NCBI GenBank assembly: GCA_903907985.1
Contig: CAIVQG010000069.1
Location: 1-64,000, forward strand
Direction of reading: 5' to 3'
Length of the DNA: 64,000 nucleotides
Origin: an uncultured delta proteobacterium
Lineage (GTDB): Bacteria; Desulfobacterota; Syntrophia; Syntrophales; Smithellaceae
The notes beneath the pieces were generated by a model, which saw nothing but the letters and a program-made list of their open reading frames with translations, was not told where the DNA came from and made no database searches. Each line of letters starts with the position of its first letter. The first letter of the stretch is position 1. Below, one piece after another: positions 34,813-59,179 of this stretch. The position numbers and the translations under genes were made by a program.

Positions 34813-35268
34813 GTGTCTGTAATTGGCGAAAATATCGATGCATATTGCTTAAAATGTAAAATGGTACTTGCTCACGTTATCATGTTCAAGGTTGGTGAAA
34901 CCGTGAACAAGGTCAAATGTAATACCTGCGCTGCGGAACACAAATACCGTCCTGAAAAAACGGCGGCGAAAAAAACCACTGTCCCCAAGGTTAGCAGGCC
35001 GCTAACGCTCAAAGAAACAATGGCGAAAAGGGCTGCTGCAGCTAAAGTCCAGGATAATAATGCTCCAATGAAGTGGGACCTCAGAAACCGCAGCAGGGAC
35101 AGCGCAACGACTGTCAAAGATTACTCAATTCACAATCAATATCGTTCTAAAGATGTAGTTAATCATTCCGTTTTCGGTTTGGGTTATGTTGAGCGTATCG
35201 TTTCTGATAAGAGTATGGATGTCTTATTTAGTGACGCCGTAAAATTAATGGCAATGAATATCACTTAA
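34813..35268 (+). CDS. Hypothetical zinc-ribbon protein with CarD-like short tail
   Basis: 151 residues starting with GTG (AAGGAG 7 bases upstream). The N-terminus has CLKCKMVLAHV and KVKCNTCAAEHKY, two CxxC pairs that can form a zinc ribbon. A basic Ala/Lys-rich linker (about 50-85) follows. The last third (HSVFGLGYVERIVSDKSMDV then LFSDAVKLMAMN) resembles the beta-barrel segment of CarD/RapA-type transcription factors that read VFGxGxV. A nucleic-acid or RNA-polymerase-associated role is a guess. Small proteins of this type recur in deltaproteobacteria but I cannot name a family. Confidence 0.7.
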   Translation: MSVIGENIDAYCLKCKMVLAHVIMFKVGETVNKVKCNTCAAEHKYRPEKTAAKKTTVPKVSRPLTLKETMAKRAAAAKVQDNNAPMKWDLRNRSRDSATTVKDYSIHNQYRSKDVVNHSVFGLGYVERIVSDKSMDVLFSDAVKLMAMNIT

Positions 35269-35322
35269 GATTTAAGAGAATGAACCATCTAATCCTTTTG
35301 GTTTAATTTCTTTATTTTTCCC

Positions 35323-35352
35323 TTGACTTTTCTCAGCCATTTGCAATATATG
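35323..35352 (+). promoter_or_regulatory. Promoter of the attenuated liv/CoA-ligase operon
   Basis: TTGACT (35323-35328), 18 bases, TATATG (35347-35352). The predicted start is at about 35359, just before the AAGAGG (35361-35366) of the leader ORF at 35378. This leaves a transcript of about 160 bases before the terminator at 35481-35518. Confidence 0.6.
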
Positions 35353-35377
35353 CCGCAGTTAAGAGGTTGTTATAAAT

Positions 35378-35461
35378 ATGAATAAAAAAATATTTTCTCA
35401 TCAGGCAGCTTTTTTTTATTTTTTTAGCTTTAGCGCCAGGGTCTGCCTGACAGGATCATGA
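35378..35461 (+). CDS. Candidate phenylalanine-rich leader peptide (attenuator)
   Basis: A 27-codon ORF starting ATG at 35378 (MNKKIFSHQAA...) with AAGAGG 11 bases upstream, ending TGA at 35459-35461. Codons 12-18 (35411-35431) read FFYFFSF: five Phe and one Tyr in seven codons, like the E. coli pheL (FFFAFFF) and pheM (FRFFFYF) leaders. A stem TCAGGCAG (35401-35408) with CTGCCTGA (35443-35450) can form around the Phe codons. CTGCC can alternatively pair with GGCAG at 35487-35491, in the 5' arm of the terminator at 35481. This gives the mutually exclusive arrangement of amino-acid attenuators. The caveat is that a T-rich run gives Phe codons by chance. The rest of the gap 35269-35569 holds only the promoter and terminator. 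Confidence 0.55.
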   Translation: MNKKIFSHQAAFFYFFSFSARVCLTGS

Positions 35462-35480
35462 CCAGTAACTAGGGAAATGA

Positions 35481-35518
35481 ACCGTGGGCAGCTGAGTAAC
35501 AGCCCACGGTTTTTTTTT
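35481..35518 (+). terminator. Strong rho-independent terminator/attenuator ahead of the second liv operon
   Basis: Stem ACCGTGGGC (35481-35489) with GCCCACGGT (35502-35510), 12-base loop, then eight T. It lies between the promoter at 35323 and the start of the substrate-binding protein gene at 35570. If functional it must be bypassed for the operon to be expressed from that promoter, and no second clear promoter is seen between it and 35570. Confidence 0.85.
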
Positions 35519-35569
35519 GCCGTAAATTTAGGCAAAGTGGTAATGAAAAGCATATAATGAGGAGGGGAA

Positions 35570-36772
35570 ATGAAAAAGATTAATGTTCTGACCGTAATTA
35601 TGGCCGTAGTTTTCTTGCTAGCAGGCTTTACAACAGGGCAAGCTAAAACAATTAAAGTTGGAGCAGCAATTAACATGACCGGGCCGGCTTCGAGCTGGGG
35701 CCAGTTTCATGAAAAAGGCCAGCGCGATTATTTCCGCTATATCAATGATGTTAAAGGTGGTGTGTCCGGCAATAAGATCGAAATGATCTCCGTGGATACA
35801 GCCTACAAAGTGCCTGAAGCTGTTGCCGCCGTCCAGAAATTTGCCCTCCAGGATAAAGTGGATATGATTGCCACCTGGGGTGCAGGTGAAGGCCTGGCTG
35901 CAAAGCCGATAGTCCAAAAATATAAAATACCCACAATCAATTATTCGACCAGTTGGGAAATTCTAGAAAAACCCTTTGAATATATGTATCTGCCTTTCGG
36001 CAGCTATAAAATGGATTGTCATGCCGTTTTGGAATATGTCAGAGCAATCCATAAAGGAAAAGATGCACCCAAAGTTGGCCTGCTTACCTATAATAATGCC
36101 TATGGCCGGTCAATTCATGAACCAAGCAAGGAATATGCAGCAAAGCTGAAAATCAACATCGTGGCCATTGAAGAATTTCCCCCGAAGACAGTCGATCTGA
36201 ACACGGAATTGCTGCGCCTGCAAAAAGCCGGCGCTGAATATATATTTATCCAAATGTTGCCGTCCGCCATTATCACCGCTTTCAAGAGTGCTGATCGCAT
36301 TAATTATAGTCCGTTGTTTTTGGGAACATGGACATCAACTGACCCTGATTTCTTTAAAATGAGCAAGGGATTAATTCGCGATCGCTTTTTAATTCAATTC
36401 CCGGGTGCTCTGCCAACGGATAAATCAGAAGGTATGAAGGTGATGAAGGAACTATGGAAACGTTACAAAACAGTGGAAAAATTTGATGCTTCTTATTGGG
36501 AAGGGGTCGCGGTTGGTATGATCATGGAGAGAGCCTTTATCCGTGCTTATGAAAAAACTAAAAACATCAATCCGGAAACAATTAACGCGGCTATGGAATC
36601 ATTTAGAAATGAAGATTTTGGTGGTCTGATACCTAAAGTTACTTATACTAAAGATGATCATGGTGCATCATTCACTGCCCGTATGGTTAAAGTCACGGAA
36701 GACGGAAGATATGTGCCATTAACTAATTTTTACGTGCCGGGCAAGGATAAAATTAAACTGTTCAAACAGTAA
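35570..36772 (+). CDS. ABC transporter substrate-binding protein, Liv/HAAT type
   Basis: 400 residues with a signal peptide (cleavage near residue 26, after TTGQA) and a periplasmic-binding-protein type I fold: KVGAAINMTGPASSWGQFHE, KVGLLTYNNAYGRS. The ligand family (branched-chain amino acids, aromatic acids, amides) cannot be settled from sequence. The genes downstream encode two CoA ligases, so the cargo is probably a carboxylic acid that is activated after uptake. GAGGAGGGG precedes the ATG. It is the first gene behind the candidate attenuator and is followed by a LivG-type ATPase gene after 45 bases. Confidence 0.85.
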   Translation: MKKINVLTVIMAVVFLLAGFTTGQAKTIKVGAAINMTGPASSWGQFHEKGQRDYFRYINDVKGGVSGNKIEMISVDTAYKVPEAVAAVQKFALQDKVDMIATWGAGEGLAAKPIVQKYKIPTINYSTSWEILEKPFEYMYLPFGSYKMDCHAVLEYVRAIHKGKDAPKVGLLTYNNAYGRSIHEPSKEYAAKLKINIVAIEEFPPKTVDLNTELLRLQKAGAEYIFIQMLPSAIITAFKSADRINYSPLFLGTWTSTDPDFFKMSKGLIRDRFLIQFPGALPTDKSEGMKVMKELWKRYKTVEKFDASYWEGVAVGMIMERAFIRAYEKTKNINPETINAAMESFRNEDFGGLIPKVTYTKDDHGASFTARMVKVTEDGRYVPLTNFYVPGKDKIKLFKQ

Positions 36773-36817
36773 ATTAACTGTGAAGATGTTTTATTATGAT
36801 CTTCCAGAAGGATTTTC

Positions 36818-37645
36818 ATGAAAGCTTTTCGTGGCCGGCCGTCAATATTCAGCAGCCGGCGAGAAGAAGATAAAAAAGCAGAATTGGTAATTAAAGATTT
36901 GCGTTTGAACTTTGGCGGCGTTATTGCGGTCAAGGATGTCGATCTTAATGTCCATACCGGAGAATTGATGGCTATTATCGGTCCTAATGGAGCCGGTAAG
37001 ACCAGTTTGCTCAACTGTATTACCGGCTTTTACCATCCTCAAAAAGGGCAGATTATTTTCAACGGTCAGGATATTACCAACCTCCATACGCATGAACTGG
37101 TTTCGGTTGGAATTGGCAGGACATTTCAGAACATAGAATTATTTCCGGGAATGACAGTACTGGCCAATATGACTTTGGCACGCCATATTCATTGCAATTA
37201 CAGTTTTCTTCGTTCCTGTTTATTTTCCGGGGCGGTAAAAAAAGAAGAAATCCGGCATCGGCAAATTCTGGAAGAAATAATCGATTTTCTGGAAATGCAA
37301 CCCATCCGTAAAAAAACTGTAGGATCTCTGCCCTATGGAATGATGAAAAGAGTAGAATTGGGAAGGGCTCTGGCTCTGGAACCCCGTTTGCTCATTTTAG
37401 ATGAACCTTTTGCCGGAATGAATCTGGAAGAAAAAGAAGATATGGTTCGTTTCCTCTTGGAATTAAATCAAACTTGGGGACTGACGATGATTTTAGTTGA
37501 ACATGACATGTCCATTGTCATGAGCATTTCCCAGCGCATTATGGTCTTAAATTTTGGCGAAAAACTGGGTGAAGGCTCGCCTGAGGAAATCAGCAACCAT
37601 CCGGAAGTAATTAAAGCCTATCTGGGTGATGTTGATACTTTGTAG
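36818..37645 (+). CDS. Liv/HAAT-type ABC transporter ATPase, LivG-like
   Basis: 275 residues with Walker A GPNGAGKTSLLNCI, the LivG insert GIGRTFQNIELFPGM, signature LPYGMMKRVELGRAL (a deviant of LSYG), Walker B LLILDEPFAGMN and switch VEHDMSIVM. It carries an N-terminal extension of about 20 residues compared with the first LivG. Order and spacing place it in one operon with the genes before and after. Confidence 0.88.
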   Translation: MKAFRGRPSIFSSRREEDKKAELVIKDLRLNFGGVIAVKDVDLNVHTGELMAIIGPNGAGKTSLLNCITGFYHPQKGQIIFNGQDITNLHTHELVSVGIGRTFQNIELFPGMTVLANMTLARHIHCNYSFLRSCLFSGAVKKEEIRHRQILEEIIDFLEMQPIRKKTVGSLPYGMMKRVELGRALALEPRLLILDEPFAGMNLEEKEDMVRFLLELNQTWGLTMILVEHDMSIVMSISQRIMVLNFGEKLGEGSPEEISNHPEVIKAYLGDVDTL

Positions 37646-37685
37646 AAAGATAGATTACAATAGGCGGAATAGCTTGGATTTCACG

Positions 37686-39596
37686 ATGCAAAAACACATG
37701 GACAGTTACAATACGCTTCCCCAAATACTAGCCGGAAATTTCTCTACATATGGCGATACAAAAACAGCCATCAGGGACAAAGCATATGGTATCTGGCAGA
37801 AATACAGCTGGACAGATTATTATCGTTATATGGAGAAGACTGCGGCCGGATTTGCGGCCCTGAAACTCAAGCGCGGCGATGCTGTTTGTCTGATCGTTGA
37901 GAATCATCCGGAATGGTTATTTTCGGCAGCGGCTGCCCACGCTCTGGGTGCAACAACACTAAATTTATTTACATCATCTGTAGCCGAAGAATTAAGCACA
38001 TCTATCATACGTATTCATTGCCCGATTGTTGTGGTGCAGGATCAGGAGCAAGCCGATAAGCTACTGGAAATAAAAGATAAGGTACCGTTCATTCGGAAAG
38101 TTGTTTACATAGATCCCACGGGAATGACTTCTTACGAGAATGATCCCTGGCTGATGAGCTATGCCCAACTGCTGGAAAACGGTGAAAAATATCTTCAGGG
38201 AAATGAAAATTTCATTGCAGAAGAAATAAACAAAGGACGGCCTGATGATATTGCCGTAATGATTCAGACTTCAGGAACGACCGGCATTCCCAAGTTAGCC
38301 ATGCTTTCCCATCGCAATTTGATTTCCATCGCCCTGCAATGGACAGAGGCAAATAATATTCAGCCTGCGGAAAACTGGATATCGATATCTCCTCCGGCCT
38401 GGATTGTCGATCAAATGTGGTGCCTGGGTATTGCCCTGCAAAGTGCCATGACCATTAATTTCCCCGAAACAGCCGAAACAGTGCTGGAAGATTTTCGTGA
38501 TATCGGCCCATCAATAATCATAACATCGTCGCGCTTCTGGGAGGACATGGCTTCCAGTATTCGGGTTAAAATATCTGATGCCGGTTGGTTGAAGAGAAAT
38601 TTATTTTACCTCGCTGAATCGGTTGGCAAAACAGTCGTCGAAAAAACTGCTAAGAAGATCAAAATTAATTTTTCATTGAATGTTTTATATAAATTAATGT
38701 CATTTCTGGTTTACCGCCCTCTTTTGGATCGCCTGGGCTGTTCCCACTTTCGCAGTGCTTTCACCGGGGGCCACCCTATCAGTCCGGATGTCATTCTTTT
38801 CTTCCGCGCCATTGGTTTGAATCTCAAACAATGTTATGGTTTGACGGAAGCCGGTGGTATCTTCCAGATCCAGCCGGATAATGAAGTTAAGCTGGAAACT
38901 GTCGGAAAACCATTGCCGCAGACTGAAGTAAAAATTGCCGATGATCAGGAAGTTCTGGTGAAAAGCCTGGCTAATTTTTCAGGCTATTATAATGATTATG
39001 AGACAACACAGAATGCTTTTCTTGATGGCTGGCTGAAAACAGGTGATGCCGGTTACATTGATGTCGATGGCCATTTACTGATAATCGGCCGCAAAGAAGA
39101 TATCATCCGCAATAAAAGCGGCGAAGCTTTTTCGCCAGATTTTATTGAAACCCGTTTGAAGTTCAGCCCATATATTAAAGAAGCAGTTATATTTGGTGAG
39201 AGTCGGCCTTTCATAACCGCAATGATCAACATCGATTTGGGAAACGTCGGCAACTGGGCGGAAGAACGGATGATTCCTTATACAACTTATATGGATCTTG
39301 CGCAGCAGCCGGCAGTCGAAGAATTGATCTTAAAAGAAGTAAGGAAGGTTAACGAGCAACTTCCCAATTTGATGAAACTCAAAACGTTTATTCTGCTTTA
39401 CAAATTACTCGATGCTGATGAAGAAGAGCTTACCCGCACCGGTAAGGTAAGGCGGCGTTTTGTTTACGGGCTGTATATTAAAATTATTGAGGCTATGTAC
39501 CATAATGAAAAAAATGTTCGGGTACAGGGTAAGGTGCGTTACCGTGACGGCCGTATCGGTGAAATTGAAACAACGGTAAACATAATTCAGGTATGA
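37686..39596 (+). CDS. AMP-forming acyl-CoA synthetase embedded in the transport operon
   Basis: About 636 residues from the ATG at 37686. An earlier in-frame start at 37626 overlaps livG and adds a non-conserved stretch. The adenylate-forming motifs are QTSGTTGIPKLAMLSHRN (P-loop), KQCYGLTEAGGIFQ, LKTGDAGYIDVDGHLLIIGR and KEDIIRNKSGEAF. The C-terminal catalytic lysine lies in LTRTGKVRRRF. The family is long-chain fatty-acyl-CoA ligase-like but also includes aryl and other acyl-CoA ligases. It is placed between the ATPase and permease genes, so CoA activation is coupled to import. A MITE-like repeat starts four bases after the stop. Confidence 0.87.
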   Translation: MQKHMDSYNTLPQILAGNFSTYGDTKTAIRDKAYGIWQKYSWTDYYRYMEKTAAGFAALKLKRGDAVCLIVENHPEWLFSAAAAHALGATTLNLFTSSVAEELSTSIIRIHCPIVVVQDQEQADKLLEIKDKVPFIRKVVYIDPTGMTSYENDPWLMSYAQLLENGEKYLQGNENFIAEEINKGRPDDIAVMIQTSGTTGIPKLAMLSHRNLISIALQWTEANNIQPAENWISISPPAWIVDQMWCLGIALQSAMTINFPETAETVLEDFRDIGPSIIITSSRFWEDMASSIRVKISDAGWLKRNLFYLAESVGKTVVEKTAKKIKINFSLNVLYKLMSFLVYRPLLDRLGCSHFRSAFTGGHPISPDVILFFRAIGLNLKQCYGLTEAGGIFQIQPDNEVKLETVGKPLPQTEVKIADDQEVLVKSLANFSGYYNDYETTQNAFLDGWLKTGDAGYIDVDGHLLIIGRKEDIIRNKSGEAFSPDFIETRLKFSPYIKEAVIFGESRPFITAMINIDLGNVGNWAEERMIPYTTYMDLAQQPAVEELILKEVRKVNEQLPNLMKLKTFILLYKLLDADEEELTRTGKVRRRFVYGLYIKIIEAMYHNEKNVRVQGKVRYRDGRIGEIETTVNIIQV

Positions 39597-39600
39597 TAAG

Positions 39601-39720
39601 CCGTTGTTCAAAAATAACTTAGTCTTGCCACCCGCATGGGTGGTCAAATAAACGCTGGGAACGGCATAAGGAGCCGTAACGAAATACAGGAAAGAATAGG
39701 TTATTTCGAAACGGCTCCTA
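39601..39720 (+). repeat. Intergenic MITE-like repeat, copy B (inside an operon)
   Basis: The clearest copy: CCGTTGTTCAAAAATAACTT at the left, GCATGGGTGGTCAAATAA in the middle, AACGGCATAAGG and GCCGTAACGAAATA, ending TTATTTCGAAACGGCTCCTA. The last part pairs with 39669-39686 as an 18-position hairpin with 2 mismatches. It fills the gap between the synthetase and livH genes and must be transcribed with them. Confidence 0.85.
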
Positions 39721-39733
39721 AAAGGATTTTAAA

Positions 39734-40612
39734 ATGGATTTTTTTCTTCAGCTCCTGGTAAATGGCGTTTGTGTCGGGCTTCTCTATGGAATATCAGCCA
39801 TGGGGTTCGTGATGATTTTTAAATCATCCAGTGTGTTGAACTTTGCCCATGGTGAACTTCTGGCGCTGGGAGCTTTCTTTTTCTTAGCTTTGATTACCTG
39901 GGCCGGCTTGCCTGTTTTAATCGCTTTTATTCTGACGCTGGTCGGTTGCTTCATTCTGGGATTTTTAATTGAAAAATTCTTTTTAAGGCCGCTCATCGGT
40001 GAAAAACTGATTTTTGTTATTATGCTTACGGTAGGTCTTGCGGCCATGTTCAAAGGGCTTATTTTACTTATCTGGGGCGGTAATTTGCATACTTATCCTG
40101 ATTTTTTGCCGGAATCATTGGCACTGAAATTGGGCGCAATCTATATCGCACCAGTTTATTCAGCTACTCTGGTCATTAGCGTCCTGTTCCTGGTTCTGTT
40201 TGGATTATTTTTTAAAAAATCGGCACAGGGAATATACATGCGCTCAGTGGCCGATAATCAAAAAGCCGCTTTATCCCTGGGAGTTCATGTCCGGCGAGTA
40301 TTTGCCTTATCCTGGGCAATTGCTGCTCTCGTTGCTAGTATGAGCGGTATCGTCTTGGGAATTATTAATGGTGTTAATGTCCACGATTTGAGTTCTATCG
40401 GGCTAAAAGTATTTCCGGTGGTTATCTTAGGCGGGCTCGATAGCATCGGTGGCGCTATTATCGGTGGTATAATTATCGGCTTGCTGGAGACTTTTACCGG
40501 TGGCTATTTATCGCCGTCATTGCGTGATGTAGTGCCTTATATTGTTCTGGTCTTTATTTTACTGGTTAAACCTTATGGCCTGTTTGGTCTTGTGGAAATT
40601 GAGAGGGTATAG
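39734..40612 (+). CDS. Liv/HAAT-type ABC transporter permease, LivH-like
   Basis: 292 residues, about eight helices, with FLQLLVNGVCVGLLYGISAM and the ATPase-contact segment LGGLDSIGGAIIGGIIIGL. AAAAGGA lies 7 bases before the ATG, just after the end of repeat copy B. The stop is immediately followed by the ATG of the next gene. Confidence 0.9.
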   Translation: MDFFLQLLVNGVCVGLLYGISAMGFVMIFKSSSVLNFAHGELLALGAFFFLALITWAGLPVLIAFILTLVGCFILGFLIEKFFLRPLIGEKLIFVIMLTVGLAAMFKGLILLIWGGNLHTYPDFLPESLALKLGAIYIAPVYSATLVISVLFLVLFGLFFKKSAQGIYMRSVADNQKAALSLGVHVRRVFALSWAIAALVASMSGIVLGIINGVNVHDLSSIGLKVFPVVILGGLDSIGGAIIGGIIIGLLETFTGGYLSPSLRDVVPYIVLVFILLVKPYGLFGLVEIERV

Positions 40613-41683
40613 ATGAGGAAATTTTCGTTTCATCCCTGCGGTAATTATCGCGAAGATTATGCTCAGGAACTGAACATATTTGATACTGATTATGGCCGGG
40701 TTTGTCTGGGGCTGTTTCTGGTTTTGCTTTTTTTCGTAACCCCTTTAACAGTCAGCCCTTATATGCTCTATATTCTGAATACTATCGGCATAGCTGCTAT
40801 TGCTGCCATTGGGCTGAATATTCTTATCGGTTATACCGGACTAATATCGCTGGGACATGGCGCTTTTTTCGGTGTTGGCGCCTATGCAGCGGCCATATTA
40901 GCTACTCGCGTGGGGCTCGATTTTTATCTGGCCATACCGGCCGCCGGTATCATAACAGCACTTGTCGGCATGATTATCGGAATTCCTTCCGGACGTTTGA
41001 AGGGTCTGTATTTAACGATTGCCACCCTGGCCGGCCAATTTATCATCGAATACGTTCTTATCCATTGGGACAGTATGACTCAGGGAACAATGGGTATTAC
41101 CATTCCTCCAGCGAAAATTATGCAATGGGAAATAGCGGGAGATAAGTCTTTTTTCTTTCTGATCTTCTTTTGCCTTGTTTTAATGACCTGGTTTGCCGTT
41201 AATGTCATGCGCAGCAAGTATGGACGAGCTTTTATTGCCATTCGGGATAATGACCGGGCGGCCGAAGGCATGGGTATTCCAATTTTTAAATATAAACTAC
41301 TATCTTTTGCCATGAGCTCTTTTTATGCCGGTTTTGCCGGAGCGCTCTGGGCATATTATATGGTCAGCGTAACCGCCGAACCTTTTAATTTGAGCCTATC
41401 CGTAGAATTTATTGCCATGGTTATAATTGGCGGTATGGGCAATATTCCCGGAGCAATATTCGGAGCTACATTTATCACGCTACTTAATGAACTGCTGCGC
41501 TACATTACCGGCTTTCTCATGAATATCGGCGTTGTAACAAGTTCCGGTTTAAATATGGCGCCGTTGCGCGAATTTGTTTTTGGATTATCCATCGTTTTGT
41601 TTATTTTATTGGAACCACGAGGCATTGCCGAAATATGGAGAATAGTGCGCTCCAACTTTAGGCTGTGGCCATTTTCATATTAG
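40613..41683 (+). CDS. Liv/HAAT-type ABC transporter permease, LivM-like
   Basis: 356 residues, longer than the first LivM because of an N-terminal soluble stretch of about 30 residues. It has LNILIGYTGLISLGHGAFFG and GGMGNIPGAIFGATFI. It begins directly at the LivH stop, so the two permeases are translationally coupled. Confidence 0.9.
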   Translation: MRKFSFHPCGNYREDYAQELNIFDTDYGRVCLGLFLVLLFFVTPLTVSPYMLYILNTIGIAAIAAIGLNILIGYTGLISLGHGAFFGVGAYAAAILATRVGLDFYLAIPAAGIITALVGMIIGIPSGRLKGLYLTIATLAGQFIIEYVLIHWDSMTQGTMGITIPPAKIMQWEIAGDKSFFFLIFFCLVLMTWFAVNVMRSKYGRAFIAIRDNDRAAEGMGIPIFKYKLLSFAMSSFYAGFAGALWAYYMVSVTAEPFNLSLSVEFIAMVIIGGMGNIPGAIFGATFITLLNELLRYITGFLMNIGVVTSSGLNMAPLREFVFGLSIVLFILLEPRGIAEIWRIVRSNFRLWPFSY

Positions 41684-41790
41684 AAAACTAGCATTTTCTT
41701 TTTGTAAAAAGTAAATGCTTAAGTTTTCTTATCCCGCAAAGCGGGGTTAGTGAATTAGAAATTATCCTGTTTATTGGTTTAAGGTAAATT

Positions 41791-42591
41791 ATGGGTGAAA
41801 TACTTTTACAAATAAATAATATATCTGTTGTATATTCAGATGTTATACAGGTATTAAAAGGTGTTTCTTTAAGTGTGGAAAAGGGGCATATAGTATCTCT
41901 TCTGGGTAGCAACGGCGCCGGGAAAACAACTACCTTAAAGGCCGTATCCGGTTTACTCAAACCGGAGAATGGAGAAGTAACGGATGGTGAAATTATTTTT
42001 CAAGGTAAGAACATCCAGAATCAAGCGCCGGAACACATAACACGTCAGGGAATCATTCAAGTTTTGGAAGGCCGTCAGCCCTTCAAATATTTAACGATTG
42101 AAGAAAATTTGCGGGTAGGAACAGCAACGCGGGCGGGAAAGCCCTATAAACAGGACTTGGAGATGGTTTATAATTATTTTCCGGCCCTGGTGCAAAGAAG
42201 AAAATCATTAGCCGGATACTGTAGTGGCGGTGAATTGCAGATGCTGGTTATCGGCCGGGCTTTGATGGCACATCCTAAGCTTTTAATGCTCGATGAACCA
42301 TCGTTGGGATTGGCCCCTCTTGTCGTCAAAGAAATATTTCAAATCATTAAAAAAATTAACGAAGATCAAGGCGCTACCATCATCTTAGTGGAGCAAAACG
42401 CCAACATGGCGCTCCAGGTTGCCCATTACGGTTATGTTATGGAAAACGGCAAGATCATGATGGAAGGAACAGCCAAAGAATTATCCGAAAATCCGGATGT
42501 CAAAGAATTTTACCTGGGCATGGCCGCCTCCGGTATCGCCAAGTCTTATAAAGACGTTAAATCCTACAAGCGACGCAAACGCTGGTTATGA
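41791..42591 (+). CDS. Liv/HAAT-type ABC transporter ATPase, LivF-like
   Basis: 266 residues with Walker A GSNGAGKTTTLKAV, signature CSGGELQMLVIGRAL, Walker B LLMLDEPSLGL and LVEQNANMAL, plus a basic C-terminal tail. The spacer before it (41684-41790) has a short CCCGCAAAGCGGG hairpin at 41733-41745. The 171-base gap behind it has a TTCGCC/GGCGAA hairpin near 42619 but no obvious terminator, so the ligase gene at 42763 may still be in the operon. Confidence 0.9.
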   Translation: MGEILLQINNISVVYSDVIQVLKGVSLSVEKGHIVSLLGSNGAGKTTTLKAVSGLLKPENGEVTDGEIIFQGKNIQNQAPEHITRQGIIQVLEGRQPFKYLTIEENLRVGTATRAGKPYKQDLEMVYNYFPALVQRRKSLAGYCSGGELQMLVIGRALMAHPKLLMLDEPSLGLAPLVVKEIFQIIKKINEDQGATIILVEQNANMALQVAHYGYVMENGKIMMEGTAKELSENPDVKEFYLGMAASGIAKSYKDVKSYKRRKRWL

Positions 42592-42762
42592 TACCATTCA
42601 GCTTGGAAGTATTCGCCAAGAAGGCGAAAATTCCCGGCGTGGTAGATTTTTAATTTTGTATACGCATCCCTAAGGGATTGCGCTTCCCGGTCTGCGGACA
42701 ACTTTGTGTTAGCATGTATTCTTTATACAAAAAATTAATTATAATAAACAAAAAGGAAACCT

Positions 42763-44016
42763 ATGAGCCGCTTATTTGATGATAAAGAATCGTGGACGAG
42801 AGAAGAAAGAAAAACAAAGCAAGACCAGAGTCTATCTAATATGGTAAGTCTAGGCTATGAGAAATCACCCCGTATAAAGCAAATATTCGACACGCATAAA
42901 ATCAATCCGCTCAATATTAAATCAAGGGAAGATTTGGAAGTGCTGCCGGTTACCTCGAGGGAAAAGCTGGTGGACATGGAGCTCCAGGACCAGCCTTTTG
43001 CGAGTCTGCAAAATCCTGATATAAAAATTGACCGGATTTTTACATCACCGGGTCCTGTTTATGAACCGCATCTTTCCGAAACGGATTATCTCTGGGCACG
43101 GGCCTATCATGCAGCAGGCATTGGCCCCGATGATATCGCCCTTTGCGCTTTTTCTTATCACCTGGTGGCGGCAGGTCTAACTTTCCACAGCGGTTTGCGC
43201 AAAGTAGGCGCCACGGTAGTTCCTTCCGGGGCATCATCATCGCAGATGCAGGTACAATTGATTAAAGATTTAAAGGTTACTGCTTATACGGGCACACCCA
43301 GTTTTCTTATGTCTATTATCAGCAAAGCTCAAGAGTTGAGCTTTGATTTTAAGAAAGATTTTGGTGTGAAAAAAGCCTGTTTTGCCGCGGAACCGCTGTT
43401 TCCGGATATGCGCCGGAAATTTGAAGAAGAATACGGTATTGATACATATCAAATGTACGGAGCGACCGAAGTAGGCGATGTTGCCTACGAATGCAGCGAG
43501 AAAAAGGGCTGGCATATCTGCGAAGAAACTATTGTGGAAATAGTTGATCCAGAGACCGGCCGCAATGTTGCAGCGGGTGAGCTAGGTGAAATTGTTGTTA
43601 CCCGCCTCAATGATATTTTCTTCTTGCTGCGCTTTGGAACCGGGGATTTATCGCGCCTGATTGCCGAGCATTGTCCCTGCGGACGCACATCTTACCGGTT
43701 GGCCGGAATTGCCGGCAGGGTAGGGGATGCCGTCAAAGTACGGGGTATGTTTATAGCCCCCAGCCAGTTAAAGATGATTCAAGCAAAATTTAACAATTTG
43801 CCCATACAGGCAATTGTAACCAGAGAAGGTCATGCAGATCGTCTGAAACTGCGGCTGGAAAAGATTTCTCCGGAAATGGGTGATGAAAAATGGGAAACCG
43901 GATTTAAAAAATATTTTCAGGAAATCTGCACAGTGAAGATTGATCAAATAGAATACGTATCGGCAGGTACGATTAAACCGGAAGAGAAACTACTGGTTGA
44001 TTTGCGGAAGTGGTAA
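42763..44016 (+). CDS. Phenylacetate-CoA ligase-like (PaaK family) adenylate-forming enzyme
   Basis: 417 residues with the PaaK layout: ARAYHAAGIGPDDIALCAFS, YQMYGATEVGDVAYEC, HICEETIVEIVDPETG, LLRFGTGDLSRL, a CPCGRT zinc-like pair and AGRVGDAVKVRGMFIAPSQL. Instead of the usual SSGTTGxP P-loop it has FTSPGPVYEPH, so nucleotide handling may differ from classical PaaK. PaaK activates phenylacetate with ATP and CoA. With its deviant P-loop the true substrate is uncertain. As the last gene of the liv operon, it points to an aromatic or short-chain acid. AAAGGAAA precedes the ATG. Confidence 0.82.
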   Translation: MSRLFDDKESWTREERKTKQDQSLSNMVSLGYEKSPRIKQIFDTHKINPLNIKSREDLEVLPVTSREKLVDMELQDQPFASLQNPDIKIDRIFTSPGPVYEPHLSETDYLWARAYHAAGIGPDDIALCAFSYHLVAAGLTFHSGLRKVGATVVPSGASSSQMQVQLIKDLKVTAYTGTPSFLMSIISKAQELSFDFKKDFGVKKACFAAEPLFPDMRRKFEEEYGIDTYQMYGATEVGDVAYECSEKKGWHICEETIVEIVDPETGRNVAAGELGEIVVTRLNDIFFLLRFGTGDLSRLIAEHCPCGRTSYRLAGIAGRVGDAVKVRGMFIAPSQLKMIQAKFNNLPIQAIVTREGHADRLKLRLEKISPEMGDEKWETGFKKYFQEICTVKIDQIEYVSAGTIKPEEKLLVDLRKW

Positions 44017-58201: not shown

Positions 58202-59179
58202 ATGCCTGATCTTCTTGTTGATATTCAGAAATTAAATAAAAAATATACGCTCACAAGCGGTATGTTCAATTCTAAAAACAGAGTTGTTGATGCAGTTAAT
58301 GATGTGAATTTAAAAATATTTAAAGGAGAAACATTAGGTCTGGTCGGGGAATCTGGTTGCGGAAAATCAACACTGGCCCGCCTGATAACAAGGCTGGAAA
58401 AACCATCGTCCGGTTTTATCAGCTTCAAAGGAGAAAATATAAATTCTTATAACAGCAAATCCCTGAAAGCATACCGCCGGAATGTCCAGTTGATATTTCA
58501 GGACCCATATTCTTCTCTCAACCCTCGCAAATCGGCTGCTGTTATAATTAAAGAACCGTTAACTATTCATCACATCGGCGATAGAAATACCCGCAGTAAA
58601 TCGGTATTGGAATTAATGGCGAAAGTCGGCTTAAGTGCTGAACAGGCTAATCGCTATCCACACGAATTCAGTGGGGGACAGAGACAACGCATTGGAATTG
58701 CGCGGGCACTTATTCTCCGGCCGGAAATGATTGTCGCTGACGAACCTGTCTCCGCCCTGGATGTATCTATTCAGGCACAAATATTAAATTTACTCAAAGA
58801 TTTAAAACAGGACTTTGGTTTGACATATTTGTTTGTTTCTCACGATCTTAATGTGATCCGCCATATGTCTGATCGCATTGCGGTGATGTATTTGGGCCAA
58901 ATTGTTGAACTGGCGCAAAATCACGATATTTATGATTACCCGCTCCATCCTTACACGCAAATGCTGCTTGCGGCTGTACCGTCCTGCGACCGGCAGAAGA
59001 AGGGAAAAAAAGTCGCAATAAAAGGCGAAGCGAGGATTGAAGGTGCACGAGGATGTAATTTCAAAAACCGCTGTCTTTATAAATTGCCGGTTTGTGAGGA
59101 GCAGCAGCCCGTTTTGAAGGATATAAATAATAAAAGATTTTGTGCTTGCCATTTAGTGTCTGCAAAAGAGGAAGAATGA
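58202..59179 (+). CDS. Oligopeptide/dipeptide ABC transporter ATPase, OppF/DppF type
   Basis: 325 residues. Walker A GESGCGKSTLARLI, the signature FSGGQRQRIGIARAL, Walker B VADEPVSALDVSIQA and the terminal Cys domain GCNFKNRCLYKLPVCEEQQP. It pairs with the preceding OppD-type ATPase. The stop overlaps the next gene's start region (ATGATG). Confidence 0.92.
   Translation: MPDLLVDIQKLNKKYTLTSGMFNSKNRVVDAVNDVNLKIFKGETLGLVGESGCGKSTLARLITRLEKPSSGFISFKGENINSYNSKSLKAYRRNVQLIFQDPYSSLNPRKSAAVIIKEPLTIHHIGDRNTRSKSVLELMAKVGLSAEQANRYPHEFSGGQRQRIGIARALILRPEMIVADEPVSALDVSIQAQILNLLKDLKQDFGLTYLFVSHDLNVIRHMSDRIAVMYLGQIVELAQNHDIYDYPLHPYTQMLLAAVPSCDRQKKGKKVAIKGEARIEGARGCNFKNRCLYKLPVCEEQQPVLKDINNKRFCACHLVSAKEEE

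Follow-up and report, generated by a model that had tools for sequence, protein, structure and literature searches.

We analysed a 64,000-nucleotide stretch of DNA (the window) from a Smithella-like genome, with Smithella and Smithellaceae MAGs as its relatives (Smithellaceae, Syntrophales, Thermodesulfobacteriota). An operon spans positions 35570-44016 of its forward strand. The first structural gene encodes a Liv-type solute-binding protein (SBP; 35570-36772) with a Peripla_BP_6 domain. Family scans identified the genes behind it, all on the forward strand, as a LivG-type ATPase (36818-37645), a FadD-like, AMP-forming acyl-CoA ligase of 656 aa (37626-39596), a LivH-type permease (39734-40612), a LivM-type permease (40613-41683), a LivF-type ATPase (41791-42591) and a PaaK-like enzyme of the phenylacetate-CoA ligase family (42763-44016). 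With a Peripla_BP_6 SBP, two BPD_transp_2 permeases and two LivG/LivF-type ATPases, the transporter is a Liv/HAAT-type ABC importer. The first-pass annotation had described an operon with two CoA ligases. The AMP ligase is indeed conserved between livG and livH, but the PaaK-like gene is a variable member of the operon: the operon loci fetched from the three other genomes of the genus contain no match to it. At 194.8 bits it also falls below the 646.3-bit cut-off of the PaaK equivalog TIGR02155, and we refer to it as PaaK-like. The conserved target of the leader described here is SBP-LivG-AMP ligase-LivH-LivM-LivF.

The leader region lies immediately upstream of the SBP gene. A promoter can be read from the sequence at 35323-35352, with a -35 box TTGACT (35323-35328), an 18-nt spacer and a -10 box TATATG (35347-35352). 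It had been described as near-consensus; the promoter is present where it was placed, but its boxes match the consensus at 5/6 and 4/6 positions, respectively, and it was missed by a consensus scan of the window. By eye, a TTGACT-17/18-TATA arrangement recurs upstream of the leaders of relatives. The consensus scan called an internal promoter at 35529-35558, from which transcription would start a few bases before the first structural gene. Downstream of the 35323-35352 promoter, a Shine-Dalgarno sequence (AAGAGG, 35361-35366) precedes a leader-peptide ORF of 27 codons, MNKKIFSHQAAFFYFFSFSARVCLTGS (35378-35461), which starts with ATG at 35378, ends with TGA at 35459-35461 and reads FFYFFSF at codons 12-18 (35411-35431). 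A further short ORF, overlapping the first at ATGA (35458), was weighed as translationally coupled and rejected; its length varies, and many distant leaders have no ATG at this place. Directly upstream of the leader is a 151-aa ORF (34813-35268) that has no match in Pfam or NCBIfam.

Four RNA strands can be recognized in and behind the leader ORF. Strand 1, TCAGGCAG (35401-35408), pairs at 8/8 positions with CTGCCTGA (35443-35450), a part of strand 2, GGTCTGCCTGA (35440-35450), to give a pause or protector stem. Strand 2 can instead pair through CTGCCT (35443-35448) with strand 3, GGGCAG (35486-35491), to give an antiterminator of 6 bp that is identified by comparison and folding. Strand 3 overlaps the 5′ arm of an intrinsic terminator (strand 3:4; 35480-35518), recognized from sequence, folding and covariation, whose arms AACCGTGGGC (35480-35489) and GCCCACGGTT (35502-35511) run into a T9 tract at 35510-35518. 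Strand 2 is inside the footprint of a ribosome standing at the leader stop codon. The Shine-Dalgarno sequence, the ORF with its Phe run, the 1:2 stem, the alternative CTGCC/GGCAG pairing and a strong terminator before the first structural gene had all been proposed in the first-pass annotation, and each was found at its position.

We interpret this arrangement as a ribosome-mediated transcription attenuator that responds to charged tRNA-Phe, a reading to which we assign a probability of about 0.88. RNA polymerase would transcribe the leader with a ribosome following. With ample Phe-tRNA, the ribosome would reach the stop codon at 35459 and cover strand 2, the terminator would form, and transcription would stop before the operon. 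When Phe-tRNA is scarce, the ribosome would stall at codons 12-18 and cover strand 1; strand 2 would then be free to pair with strand 3, no terminator would form, and the Liv-importer/acyl-CoA-ligase operon would be transcribed. The Phe-rich ORF and the terminator together thus probably switch the operon on when Phe is short, with readthrough expected to depend on Phe-tRNA. Given the Tyr codons mixed into many of the Phe runs, the specificity may be for Phe/Tyr rather than for Phe.

The leader is conserved with its operon. Orthologues of the SBP gene (E ≤ 1e−100) were found in 44/51 Smithellaceae genomes, and the leader lies upstream of the orthologue in 44/44 of these. A covariance model built from 60 leaders matches (E ≤ 1e−15) in 44/44 genomes that have the SBP orthologue and in 1/7 that do not. 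The sequence upstream of the leader varies between relatives, and in one group the end of a citrate-synthase-like reading frame is seen there by eye. The neighbourhood changes while the leader and the operon stay together. Leaders also precede SBP orthologues that are 65-80% identical in other Syntrophales and other Thermodesulfobacteriota. Across the 67 leaders read, from Syntrophales and beyond, Phe makes up 23% of residues, and at least four Phe are present in 66/67; the exception, L032, has its Phe run in a different frame. The Phe run, the reading frame, the stop position, the strand-2/strand-3 pairing and the terminator are kept and the remainder diverges.

The leaders fall into two classes. 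Those of class A are built like the window's own, ending ...FFSF...VCLxxS*, and most of the relatives in this class have AGAGG or GAGG as the Shine-Dalgarno sequence. Class B (13/67; L099-L101, L103, L105-L108, L110-L112, L122 and L125) comprises ORFs of 13-20 codons that end in FFFF(F)G/D/V/C, with the stop directly before strand 2. Because class B leaders have no Shine-Dalgarno sequence and their ATG is close behind the promoter, they may be translated from leaderless mRNA. Two Smithellaceae leaders depart from the usual build and retain the Phe run: a deletion removes strand 1 in L026, and a frame offset places the stop within strand 2 in L032. Lack of the ORF or of its Phe run in orthologues, which the first-pass annotation had named as refuting an attenuator, is confined to a few distant ones. 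Five orthologues (L097, L117, L119, L121, L128) have no recognizable leader, which appears to have been lost or never to have been present.

The spacing of the leader elements points to translation of the ORF. Between the TTTAGCTTT motif and the GTC codon of strand 2 the distance is 9, 12, 15 or 18 in 43/44 leaders, so that it differs by multiples of 3, and is 14 in the remaining one. From the GTC to the stop codon the distance is 18 nt in 48/50 class A leaders, and the distance from stop to terminator is not limited to one phase. The fixed GTC-to-stop distance means that a terminating ribosome would always cover strand 2, as attenuation requires. The leaders therefore have what is expected of the ORF of a ribosome-mediated attenuator, namely frame-preserving spacing, a start, a Shine-Dalgarno sequence (except in class B) and a fixed stop, together with a run of Phe codons at the stall position.

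A terminator whose 5′ arm has an alternative upstream pairing, the other hallmark of such attenuators, is also seen in the alignments. For the terminator, aligned over 60 sequences, 99.1% of cells are paired and 52 cells are changed on both sides, and its covariation is higher than in any of the 500 shuffles or any slid control. The covariation of the strand 2:3 pairing (93.9% paired) likewise lies above 500/500 shuffles and every slid control, with no more than two pairs altered on both sides, e.g., GGTCTGCC/GGCAGACC to GGTCTACC/GGTAGACC. A column shuffle of the 31 unique strand-2/strand-3 combinations gave 91.0% paired against 89.9%, with 194/5000 shuffles at least as high; this test is weak because the strand-2/strand-3 core barely varies, and the alignment-based test is the stronger one. 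Within the genus of the window, erosion has left the antiterminator with 6-7/9 pairs. The strand 1:2 stem is seen in the Smithellaceae and absent from more distant leaders, and its covariation is near background. The first-pass annotation had named conservation of the Phe codons, both alternative stems and the terminator, with compensatory changes, as what would support an attenuator. The Phe run, strands 2 and 3 and the terminator are kept in orthologues. Compensatory changes are clear for the terminator and less so for the 2/3 pairing, but the 1:2 stem does not extend beyond the Smithellaceae.

Folding of single sequences is less informative. The fold of the window's leader is moderately unusual (z −1.9), and the main evidence is for this reason comparative. 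Since the terminator always wins when strand 4 is present, the antiterminator was folded with strand 4 omitted. The predicted fold is then strand 2:3, with z −3.9 to −5.3 in L094, L099 and L105; in the window's own leader this fold is weak and not unusual (z −0.9).

The same covariance model was used to find further leader sites in this genome and in others. On contig C22 of the same genome, a Phe/Tyr/Trp leader, MDRKLNANIGFYGYWFYTYFASVCPLLRRTC (L189, ~58589-58744), precedes aroF-aroB-pheA-aroD/E-aroA-aroK-aroC-tyrA, where DAHP synthase and prephenate dehydratase were named by family scans and the remainder by sequence reading. Leaders of this F/Y/W type and of the same build were read before aroF (DAHP synthase) in ~15 other Syntrophales genomes. 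A second importer operon of the genome, SBP-LivH-LivM-LivG-LivF-PaaK (L188, G000:C41:66900-85325), has a Tyr-rich leader, ...RNYYGYYYYCTIRY... (~C41:67180-67341). Six genomes from three genera have a clear Tyr leader, three more have a shorter Tyr-containing ORF, and in most other genomes examined the leader was altered or not recognized. Two weaker matches in the genome, both on the minus strand, are an NGWWWWN leader before trpE (L186, G000:C45:50632-50714; E 0.28) and a VRVLVVVL leader before ilvB (L183, G000:C30:55477-55552; E 0.007); despite the weak scores, the codons of both are telling. In other genomes, aroK-aroC (L248, L251) and an aldolase-type gene of the aromatic pathway (L247, L250) stand behind aromatic leaders, as judged by sequence reading. 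Phe leaders of the same build also precede another acyl-CoA ligase in other genomes (L161-L164); in L162 the leader frame continues without a stop into the ligase. The codon content of the leaders follows the function of the downstream genes, and nothing argues more strongly for codon sensing. At the level of sequence, the earlier proposal that charged tRNA-Phe controls readthrough is thus well supported, both by what orthologous leaders keep (the Phe run, the frame, the pairing of strands 2 and 3, and the terminator) and by the codon-matched sister leaders.

That a chance ORF simply overlies a constitutive terminator is a reading invited by the AT-rich region with its T-runs and by the modest single-sequence fold. 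However, a small ORF that has five or more Phe among seven codons and is followed by a strong terminator within 90 nt occurs once in the 64-kb window, at the leader itself, and in none of 40 copies of the window randomised by a first-order Markov model. Without the terminator, such Phe-run ORFs number 3 in the window against a mean of 0.45 in the copies. Together with 67 leaders conserved with frame-preserving spacing, these counts leave chance with practically no probability, and the comparative data refute it. The Phe-rich peptide could also act as an arrest peptide or as a sensor of another ligand (a drug, or membrane state) rather than through codon starvation, a reading for which the conserved C-terminus V-C-L-x-x-S before the stop speaks. 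This C-terminus is, however, accounted for by strand 2 (GTC TGC CTG) and the fixed stop distance, and class B leaders are entirely without it. The order and number of Phe and Tyr vary freely, and in sister leaders Phe gives way to Tyr, Trp or Val/Leu in keeping with the pathway encoded behind them. We regard peptide arrest as highly improbable.

Two other alternatives accept the attenuator or the operon and differ in what they serve. Tyr stands within the run of many leaders, e.g., FYFYFFSF, and Liv-type SBPs bind many ligands (PMC3223731), so that the leader could be a general aromatic (Phe and Tyr) sensor and the operon a broad aromatic importer. Pure Phe runs (FFFFFG/D) in more distant leaders, class B above all, and the separate Tyr-rich leader on a different Liv/PaaK operon of the same genome make this unlikely. 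A catabolic operon for fatty or phenyl acids, with Phe attenuation incidental or of opposite logic, would agree with the FadD-like character of the conserved ligase. Liv importers adjoining acyl-CoA ligases are also a usual layout in degraders of aromatic compounds. Attenuation would nevertheless turn such an operon off when Phe is plentiful, which is ill-suited to Phe catabolism, and the other leaders of this build mostly precede biosynthetic operons; we consider a catabolic role distinctly unlikely.

An attenuator for charged tRNA-Phe is of a known kind. The E. coli pheL (pheA) and pheM (pheST) leaders share the short Phe-rich ORF, the alternative 2:3 and 3:4 pairings, the terminator before the first gene and the logic of ribosome position. 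They differ in host (gammaproteobacteria, against Syntrophales of the Thermodesulfobacteriota here) and in target (Phe synthesis or tRNA charging, against a Liv importer with an acyl-CoA ligase), and the leader here is without an Rfam match. Rfam gave no known leader or riboswitch over the window at the gathering threshold and no leader family over 35300-35575 at E up to 10, and the T-box covariance model had no match in either search. We know of no Phe leader for the livK RNA motif (RF01744). That motif, a candidate cis-regulatory RNA of Pseudomonadales linked by name to livK, and the Leu/phe leader of Lactococcus lactis (RF01743), an amino-acid leader attenuator outside Proteobacteria and in a different lineage from the present one, are both listed in PMC2864571; neither covariance model matches here. 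An RNA-regulon survey covered His, Trp, Thr and Leu operon leaders, which share translation-coupled attenuation; it supposed that such motifs may have arisen in gammaproteobacteria and found their targets to be mostly biosynthetic (PMC3766115). Here, by contrast, many leaders in Syntrophales and other Thermodesulfobacteriota stand before an importer operon. A search of the open-access literature found no report of this Phe leader element, and absence there is no proof. The target, the lineage and the paired Phe and Tyr importer operons are new to us.

If the operon is on at low Phe, it should feed Phe supply and not Phe breakdown. It would probably supply Phe or a precursor, either by taking up Phe itself or by importing a phenyl acid and activating it to a CoA ester from which Phe is made. 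Plain Phe import would be the simpler explanation, but would leave the conserved ligase unexplained. IOR-type enzymes of anaerobes carry out reductive carboxylation of aryl-CoA. A plausible candidate route is the import of phenylacetate, its conversion to the CoA ester and carboxylation by indolepyruvate:ferredoxin oxidoreductase (IOR) to phenylpyruvate. IorA/IorB genes are present elsewhere in the genome, without a leader, and none were found in the fetched operon loci. Prephenate dehydratase is present too, so the usual route also yields Phe. Phenyl acids arise from Phe in anaerobic digesters (PMC6368962). For the Tyr operon, the closest solved structures to the SBP are Rhodopseudomonas SBPs, with 4jb0, which we take to be CouP, among the matches. 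CouP, a LivK-family protein, has nanomolar affinity for coumarates and 4-hydroxyphenylpyruvate (PMC3610893). The PaaK of this operon is close to true PaaK (544 bits, under the 646 cut-off).

On this basis we tentatively suggest, with well under even confidence, that Syntrophales have two parallel operons for import and activation under amino-acid-specific attenuation. In one, Phe codons in the leader would go with phenyl acids; in the other, Tyr codons would go with hydroxyphenyl acids. At Phe/Tyr shortage, phenylacetate or 4-hydroxyphenylacetate would be salvaged via the CoA ester, indolepyruvate:ferredoxin oxidoreductase, the aryl pyruvate and transamination. The leaders conserved as a set in Syntrophales are of Phe, Tyr, Trp, Phe/Tyr/Trp and Val/Leu type, and two targets of this set are importers coupled to CoA ligases. 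Other Thermodesulfobacteriota also have leaders of the Phe and aromatic types. Because the leader codons name the amino acid tied to a Liv-type importer that is otherwise unassignable, such leaders could predict cargo. The synthesis of Phe and Tyr from phenyl acids by syntrophic bacteria becomes a testable question.
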